A stretch of 64,000 nucleotides of DNA from contig PFFG01000001.1 of assembly GCA_002783265.1 (NCBI GenBank), positions 1 through 64,000 of the forward strand. The letters are read 5' to 3'. The notes under the pieces are model-generated. The model ran no database searches, was not told where the DNA came from, and was given only the letters and a program-made list of their open reading frames with translations. How positions within the stretch are numbered: the first letter of the stretch is position 1; the number at the start of each line of letters is the position of its first letter. Of the stretch, positions 50,252 through 51,928 are shown in pieces. Position numbers and translations under genes: made by a program. Source of the DNA: Candidatus Gracilibacteria bacterium CG17_big_fil_post_rev_8_21_14_2_50_48_13. GTDB taxonomy: Bacteria > Patescibacteriota > Gracilibacteria > 1-14-2-50-48-13.

Positions 50252-50278
50252 AAAAAACCCCCAAATCTGGGGGTTTTT
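50252..50278 (-). terminator. Intrinsic terminator after rpsU
   Basis: CCCCC (50258-50262) pairs with GGGGG (50269-50273), flanked by A6 and T5, loop AAATCT. It lies 10 bp past the rpsU stop; the T-rich arms would let it work in either direction. Confidence 0.85.
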
Positions 50279-50288
50279 CTTGGTGCAA

Positions 50289-50498
50289 TTAGCTTGCAAG
50301 TTCTTCCTTACGTCGCTTCGCGCGATAATGCTCACGCATGATAGCAGCGCCACGCTGTTTAATCTTCGTGTTGGGTTTTTCAAAACGGCGGTGCTTCTTG
50401 AGCTCCATAATGTAGCGAGCGCCACGGACCATTTTCTTAAAACGCTGAATCAAATGATCGTTGTTTTCACCCTGGTTCTTTTTTACGTATACTGGCAT
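50289..50498 (-). CDS. rpsU: Ribosomal protein bS21
   Basis: A 69-residue basic small-subunit protein. It has the bS21 pattern: PVYVKKNQGENNDHLIQRFKKMV, then ELKKHRRFEKPNTKIKQRGAAIMREHYRAKRRKE. bS21 sits on the 30S platform next to the anti-Shine-Dalgarno end of 16S rRNA. The gene has its own promoter and terminator and, unlike almost every other gene here, a full Shine-Dalgarno: AAAGGAGGTGAT ends four bases before the ATG. This suggests bS21 controls its own translation. Confidence 0.93.
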   Translation of the reverse strand: MPVYVKKNQGENNDHLIQRFKKMVRGARYIMELKKHRRFEKPNTKIKQRGAAIMREHYRAKRRKEELAS

Positions 50499-50501
50499 AT
50501 C

Positions 50502-50513
50502 ATCACCTCCTTT
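50502..50513 (-). promoter_or_regulatory. Full-length Shine-Dalgarno site of rpsU
   Basis: On the minus strand AAAGGAGGTGAT, a 12-base perfect match to the complement of the common bacterial 16S 3' end (ATCACCTCCTTT). Distance from AGGAGG to ATG is seven bases. It is the only strong, non-coding SD seen in this window. Confidence 0.92.
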
Positions 50514-50540
50514 CGTGCGAGCAGAAATTAAAGTAGCGCA

Positions 50541-50569
50541 ACTCTACGCTAGGTTTTCCTTGGTGGCAA
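50541..50569 (-). promoter_or_regulatory. Promoter of rpsU
   Basis: TTGCCA (50569-50564), 17-base spacer, TAGAGT (50546-50541). The leader is about 36 bases. The -35 lies inside the 3' end of the upstream gene. Confidence 0.6.
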
Positions 50570-51928
50570 GGGTTCTTGATTTTCTGGTGACAAAAGTGGC
50601 GCAGCATACAAGTGTGCACCAGATTCGTTATCTAAGAGTCGGCAAACCGTACGCCCTTGTGAGTTATCCACACACCAGTGCGAGTCTGAGAGCAACGAGT
50701 CATCAACAAGTTGCACAACAATTCGCTTCGCCTGAATACCCGTTTCTATTAATGAATCGACACAATGTTCATACAAAAGCGCGTTGTTTATTTCGTCATT
50801 TGATGCATCAAACAAACAGACAAATGCATCGAGTTTATCCGTAGGAATACGACCAAGAAGAGCAATAAGATCAGGAGAAATATGGTCAAAACTTGTACGA
50901 CCATATTCATCTACAAAGAATGGGTACGGAATATTAAAAACCATGGCAGCTCCCTCCGGCAATATGGCCTGAGTTTCCGTAAACGTATTCCCCTCCCCTG
51001 CAAGAATTGTACGCACTCGCCTTCGCTCGGTTTCTTTCGTTACCTTCGGATCTGCGACACGTAGGCCCTTCTTGATATCTATAGGGCGAGTGAAGACAAA
51101 GGTCACCCCTTCATGGGGAACCATCGCAATTTGCCCTGCATGCACGATAGTGGGAACAGACGGAATAACAGAGAGAACGGGCATGATGGAGATATCCGCT
51201 TTTACCGTTTCAAGCAGGTCTTCATAGGCGCAGCCAAAGGTATGCAATACGGCGTCGATATCTTCTGGATCAAGAAAAAAGTCGGTGGACTTTTCAAATA
51301 ATCTCTGATGAATACCTGCACCCATAAGCGTTGGAAAGACGCGCTGAAACTCGAGACGAGAGACCATGTAAGCGAAAAGACCTGGATACACGTACGCTGT
51401 TTTCTCTAGTGCATTATGATACACTGGTCCAAATATTTTTTTCAGCTCAGAAACCAGTAGTGGGGTCAGTTGACGCCAAAGTGTCTCTTGCGCCATACGT
51501 TGTTTGCGCGCGTATCGATGGTGATACATTTCTTTCCTTGGTTTTGGCACATAGGGCTTTGGGCTCTTCTCTGAGGCACGGGGCACCTCAAAGAGCGAAT
51601 GCAGAAGATTTGCCGCTACCGTTGCGTATATTTCCGCAAACTCCTGTGCTCGTTCTACATTCACATCAGGATCCTCACTTGAGGAATACAAAATTGCGGT
51701 TACATCCGCTTCTTCCACGCGCTCTTCAAGGGTGTTGATCATCTCATTCCAGAGTTTGGTCAGCATCCATAGCTCTTTCTTCTGAGCAAACCCTTCCGAC
51801 GGGTGCTCTTCAACGTATGGGTGAATATACAATTCTTCCAGAAAGGTTTGCAACCTGGGATAGCCGACGGATGCATATTCGCGTACATCTTCCTGTTTTC
51901 CATCAAAGGATTCGGGGTGAAACTCCAT
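50549..51928 (-). CDS. Hypothetical protein (459 aa)
   Basis: A soluble protein with no signal or membrane segment and no motif I recognise. The N-terminal 200 residues are helical and acidic, with a basic patch (KPYVPKPRKEMYHHRYARKQR, about 126-146). The C-terminal half has alternating strands and helices (GVTFVFTRPIDIKKGLRVADP, DKLDAFVCLFDASNDEINNALLYEHCV). It has a strong promoter (51984-51957) and lies directly before rpsU. The terminal Pro-rich PLPPRKT ends 50 bases before the rpsU start. Function unknown. Confidence 0.65.
   Translation of the reverse strand: MEFHPESFDGKQEDVREYASVGYPRLQTFLEELYIHPYVEEHPSEGFAQKKELWMLTKLWNEMINTLEERVEEADVTAILYSSSEDPDVNVERAQEFAEIYATVAANLLHSLFEVPRASEKSPKPYVPKPRKEMYHHRYARKQRMAQETLWRQLTPLLVSELKKIFGPVYHNALEKTAYVYPGLFAYMVSRLEFQRVFPTLMGAGIHQRLFEKSTDFFLDPEDIDAVLHTFGCAYEDLLETVKADISIMPVLSVIPSVPTIVHAGQIAMVPHEGVTFVFTRPIDIKKGLRVADPKVTKETERRRVRTILAGEGNTFTETQAILPEGAAMVFNIPYPFFVDEYGRTSFDHISPDLIALLGRIPTDKLDAFVCLFDASNDEINNALLYEHCVDSLIETGIQAKRIVVQLVDDSLLSDSHWCVDNSQGRTVCRLLDNESGAHLYAAPLLSPENQEPLPPRKT

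Follow-up and report, generated by a model that had tools for sequence, protein, structure and literature searches.

The window, a 64,000-nucleotide stretch of a Patescibacteria (CPR) genome, contains a minus-strand rpsU gene for ribosomal protein bS21 that is preceded by an extended Shine–Dalgarno (SD) sequence (Table 1). On that strand, the region around the start reads CGCAC-GAAAGGAGGTGAT-GAT-ATG (longer stretch, CGCACGAAAGGAGGTGATGATATGCC), and the spacing between AGGAGG and ATG is an ordinary 7 nt. The 3′ tail of the genome's own 16S rRNA, taken from the single 16S gene found, is GGATCACCTCCTTTC; it is intact and complementary to the rpsU SD, as the original prediction expected of it. A strong SD before rpsU had been placed at this position, and it is there. 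The 12-base complementarity claimed with the usual 16S 3′ end is also real and holds for the genome's own tail, but its length is 13 nt instead of 12. Concealment of the SD by a hairpin was rejected. The rpsU leader folds less than shuffled controls (z = +2.1), indicating that the SD site is open. From its sequence, the hairpin downstream of rpsU is likely an intrinsic terminator, and co-transcription of rpsU with the upstream gene is possible.

Table 1 Features around rpsU in the window.
Feature	Position	Strand	Remarks
rpsU, ribosomal protein bS21, 69 aa	50289..50498	−	ATG at 50498–50496; PF01165, E 4.8e-7, above gathering score; profile of relatives, E 2e-27
Extended Shine–Dalgarno GAAAGGAGGTGAT	50502..50514	−	13 nt complementary to own 16S tail AUCACCUCCUUUC; followed by GAT (3 nt), then ATG
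Promoter-like TTGCCA-17-TAGAGT	50541..50569	−	Consensus match alone, 9/12; would make the leader ~35 nt
Hairpin CCCCC/GGGGG with flanking A- and T-runs, directly 3′ of rpsU	50253..50278	−	Found by eye; absent from the list of the scan
Upstream gene, 459 aa, no Pfam family	50549..51928	−	Same strand as rpsU; ends ~50 nt before the rpsU start

Energies given here are those of SD pairing with the 16S 3′ tail. The genome-wide ranking covered 93% of the genome (1.19 of 1.28 Mb), in which a simple codon-based caller gave 996 genes, and 991 starts were scored. With the own tail, rpsU ranked first of the 991 starts at −21.6 kcal/mol, in line with the original prediction, and the next called starts followed at −13.8 and −13.2 kcal/mol. 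In the same 93% of the genome, AGGAGG occurs within −20 to −4 of exactly one called start. The first rank of rpsU held with any ATG, GTG, or TTG between 60 codons upstream and 20 codons downstream of a called start admitted as an alternative (2,884 candidates). This wider search gave a second strong site, at C3:27107 outside the window, with the near-perfect SD GAAAGGAGGTGACTTGT-ATG (−20.1 kcal/mol after start correction). The claim that rpsU alone has a full SD is correct for the window but has to be relaxed for the genome, where C3:27107 is near-perfect as well. Weaker alternative-start candidates besides these two are few and within the range of mock windows. The gene at C3:27107 (L018:7107–7418, plus strand) encodes a protein of 103 residues with a Cys-rich C-terminus (CDAHC...CNKKC). 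The protein had no match in Pfam, in NCBIfam, or among phage proteins, and its upstream region had none in Rfam.

SD windows were not enriched over mock windows, either in the own genome or at the neighbours of rpsU in relatives, indicating that general SD usage is absent. Specific avoidance of SD at the other starts was considered and rejected: GGAG was counted 24 times against 53 in mock windows, but GGAA was depleted as well (34 against 78). A general depletion of G-rich words therefore accounts for the rarity of SDs as compared with mock windows. Pyrimidine-rich leaders, which had been noted at these other starts, are real but modest, with a C+T fraction of 0.58–0.65 at −18 to −6 against ~0.52 further upstream. 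At −1 the fraction is 0.80, and G is as low as 0.11–0.16. Elsewhere in the genome, a run of adjacent genes at C7:87127–95390 has moderate SD-like leaders (−7.9 to −13.2 kcal/mol), unlike the rest of the genome, and is possibly a mobile element.

Named matches assign the window to the class that holds Peregrinibacteria, Peribacteria, and Gracilibacteria (families and genomes are given below as f and G numbers, and the window genome is G000). A search of genome contigs with the window bS21 alone gave no match, but an alignment of relatives used as the query did match, and bS21 is present in 226 of the 288 genomes of the class. Among the rpsU leaders of 94 genomes, 43 have an SD of about −10 kcal/mol or lower and 51 have none; this split tracks families and sometimes divides a family. 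With own tails, 23 of 50 rpsU leaders reach energies of −13 kcal/mol or lower; 1 of 768 neighbouring genes does so, as does 1 of 768 mock windows. The genome ranking and this 50-genome comparison reject a chance origin of the rpsU SD. The leaders of the genes for uS7, uS11, bS6, and bS18 lie between −1.1 and +2.4 kcal/mol. The same rpsU SD pattern was found in Saccharibacteria, another class, with energies down to −21.6 kcal/mol.

SD-less rpsU genes have a TATAAT-like box 5–11 nt before the ATG in 8 of 12 cases from other classes and in 10 of 39 from this class, as compared with 0 of 43 SD-bearing genes. With such a box, the mRNA would have little or no leader; because a purine-rich SD partly excludes it, the observation is only suggestive. 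In families f40, f91, f103, and f110, the SD-less rpsU genes (L261, L268, L273, L274, L277, and L278) carry a TANAAT box 6–11 nt before the ATG.

The strongest evidence comes from the covariation of the rpsU SD with the anti-SD. In families f14 and f22, the anti-SD is altered to CUAUCUCC, and CUAUCUC is common to all 24 of 24 16S tails from these families. In G078 (f22), the anti-SD CUAUCUCCUUCG is matched by the rpsU leader CGAAGGGGAUAG with 12 paired positions, and the energy is −18.9 kcal/mol with the own tail versus −8.7 kcal/mol with the canonical one. G013 (f14) has the rpsU leader GGGAGAUAG with the same altered anti-SD as f22 (−14.7 versus −8.0 kcal/mol); the covariation in f14 and f22 is based on one rpsU leader per family. 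Variant tails give a gain of ~2 kcal/mol in G198 (f26; −18.0 own versus −15.8 canonical) and G270 (f30; −17.1 versus −15.1). When tails were swapped among SD-bearing genomes, the mean pairing was worse than with own tails in 20,000 of 20,000 permutations. Part of the 16S tails came from 21 loci of one pattern search and from sequence matched in other searches. These results suggest that the rpsU SD and the anti-SD co-evolve, possibly through few independent events; since CUAUCUC is common to all tails of f14 and f22, the change in these two families may have been a single event. Within conserved genes of G013, G065, G083, and G070 (f14, f22, and f10), TGA codons occur as they do where TGA encodes an amino acid.

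Absence of the site from related rpsU leaders had been named beforehand as evidence against the prediction. The SD recurs in many families, but about half of the leaders lack it. The SD-less lineages mostly have an altered anti-SD, so these exceptions mostly fit the model, barring f15, f27, and a few single genomes. In families with SD-less rpsU throughout, the tails are ACAUUUCC, ACACUUCC, and ACAUCUCC (f4), UACCGCC, UAUCGCC, and UACUGCC (f6), and CACUUCC and CACCCCU (f2). G119 of f20, also with SD-less rpsU, has UAUCUCU. Four families contain both states. SD and anti-SD core are both present in G206 (f3) and G004 (f5) and both absent from G002 (f3) and G027 (f5); f16 has both in G052 and no SD in G067, the tail of which is CAUCUCC; and f18 has both in G102, G113, G025, and others and neither in G079. 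In f10, a bS21 gene was not found in nearly all genomes (G009, G021, G031, G041, G057, G070, and others), and 6 of 6 tails are altered. The anti-SD core is altered family-wide in f4, f6, f10, and f2 (16S 3′ ends L218–L238, L240–L251, and L284–L288).

In the other class sampled, all 9 of 9 SD-bearing genomes whose tail could be read have UCACCUCC; among the SD-less genomes, five from four families have UUACCUCC and two have the canonical tail. Counter-examples are f15 (three genomes) and f27, which retain the canonical tail although rpsU has no SD, and the single genomes G226 and G338, in which the CCUCC core is kept and the rpsU SD is absent. Overall, 30 of 32 SD-bearing genomes have the CCUCC core, as compared with 13 of 33 SD-less genomes (Fisher p = 3e-6, with relatedness ignored). 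A tree-based test of joint loss gave four independent pairs on supported branches, about three of them agreeing with the expectation and almost none opposing it, too few for significance. As judged from these sequences, the anti-SD has usually eroded where rpsU has lost its SD.

A mechanism that connects rpsU with the anti-SD is known from Flavobacterium johnsoniae, in which bS21, bS18, and bS6 jointly conceal the 16S tail (McNutt et al., 2023, PMC9976891). In that species, ribosomes without bS21 are better at initiating translation on the extended rpsU SD, which closes a feedback loop (PMC9976891); autoregulation of this kind in F. johnsoniae and other Bacteroidota is described there and in Jha et al. 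(2021), as cited in PMC9976891. By analogy, 30S subunits without bS21 would have an exposed 16S tail and recruit the rpsU mRNA through a helix of 12–13 bp. Once bS21 is bound, the tail would be masked, initiation on rpsU would drop, and SD-less mRNAs would be favoured. We consider it almost certain from the sequence comparisons that rpsU uses its SD for translation; it would do so through an extended SD–anti-SD helix, and most other mRNAs of the organism would initiate without one. Feedback on rpsU through bS21-lacking ribosomes is probable; tail masking by bS21, and the negative feedback that would follow from it, are drawn from the F. johnsoniae system (PMC9976891). Taken as a whole, translation of rpsU by an SD helix with bS21 feedback as its most likely role is the best explanation and a likely one. 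If this model is true, the gene at C3:27107 would, like rpsU, respond to ribosomes without bS21.

Genes for bS18 and bS6 were found in the window's own genome. In Flavobacterium bS21, Y54 stacks on A1534 (PMC9976891). The expectation that bS21 would show the residues that cover the anti-SD was not borne out at this position: the window protein has M54 as the equivalent of Y54, and the position is variable in the class, with Y in the alignment rows of f13 only (residue 54 was placed by extrapolation from an alignment to 7jil_z that ends at residue 52). This lack of conservation of the masking residues known from Flavobacterium is compatible with an SD that is real and used, but only for strong constitutive initiation on rpsU, with an always free anti-SD, no feedback, and other genes that are simply SD-less. 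All of the sequence evidence for pairing is also compatible with such constitutive use. We nevertheless regard it as unlikely, since it gives no reason why bS21 in many families keeps an extended SD, unlike uS7, uS11, bS6, and bS18, and the 16S tail is contacted by bS21.

A very improbable alternative is that rpsU senses the maturation of the 16S 3′ end, such that fully processed 30S subunits, and not bS21-lacking ones as such, translate it well. Although the match extends to the last bases of the predicted tail (GAAAGG with CCUUUC), beyond ordinary SDs, this tail end is predicted from the gene, and several conserved rpsU leaders pair over 8–10 nt only. The extended SDs of Flavobacterium act through bS21 (PMC9976891), which speaks against sensing of maturation.

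Era, which recognises GAUCACCUCC during 30S assembly, has been lost by most CPR (PMC10582724). Full-length Era was found in G000, G013, G065, and G078 only and was absent from the other 71 of 75 genomes tested; we read the remaining Era-like matches, from their length and tandem arrangement, as probable halves of the two-domain GTPase EngA. The window genome has its full-length Era at C1:266757–267575, and the only other occurrences are in f14 and f22. Era as the keeper of the anti-SD was rejected for most lineages, and with 71 of 75 genomes lacking it, Era does not explain the retention of the anti-SD in most SD-bearing families, although it could contribute to this retention in the genome of the window. 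It is scarcely tenable, despite this recognition and the Era of the window genome, that the anti-SD is kept for 30S assembly through Era and that the rpsU SD is a relic of inheritance with no special role, because Era is missing from all SD-bearing families but f1, f14, and f22, the anti-SD of f14 and f22 is altered with a matching altered SD even though Era is present, and a relic would be expected neither to hold 9–13 bp nor to covary.

Returning to bS21 feedback, the anti-SD may be kept mainly as the receptor for the rpsU leader, decaying with loss of the leader or of bS21, and the leader may follow changes of the anti-SD; we judge the case for and against this extension to be evenly balanced. 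The tendency of the SD and the anti-SD to be kept, altered, or lost together suggests that feedback control of one gene helps to preserve a ribosomal element that is nearly universal. The joint losses offer an answer to the retention of the anti-SD in SD-poor bacteria, in that lineages that have naturally lost the rpsU SD usually also lack the anti-SD core. What conserves the anti-SD thereby becomes testable through genome comparison alone. A specialised-ribosome mechanism shown in one Bacteroidota species would also extend to a very large radiation that is only distantly related.

The literature searched contained no paper reporting an rpsU SD/anti-SD finding for CPR bacteria. What is new relative to that literature is the phylum, the lack of the hallmark residue, and, most of all, the co-decay of the anti-SD; the kind of system is known from Bacteroidota and predicted in Chlorobia. 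The genomic signature in Bacteroidota is rpsU as the top gene at less than −13 kcal/mol, and SD/anti-SD covariation was taken there as compelling evidence (PMC9976891). The present lineages likewise combine an SD-poor genome and a normal anti-SD with rpsU on top, its extended SD pairing over 9–13 bp at less than −13 kcal/mol, and natural covariation occurs in a subset of them. They differ from Bacteroidota in belonging to the distant phylum Patescibacteria, in that Y54 is not conserved and masking and feedback are assigned by analogy, and in that SD-losing lineages have usually lost the anti-SD core as well. Chlorobia, for which autoregulation was predicted (PMC9976891), share the strong rpsU SD, the SD-poor background, and the missing Y54; there, however, 11 other contact residues are conserved, and no decay of the anti-SD was reported (PMC9976891). 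The notion that bS21 may switch the specificity of ribosomes is shared with phage-encoded bS21 (PMC9723584), which is a viral paralogue, whereas here it concerns the chromosomal gene and its leader.
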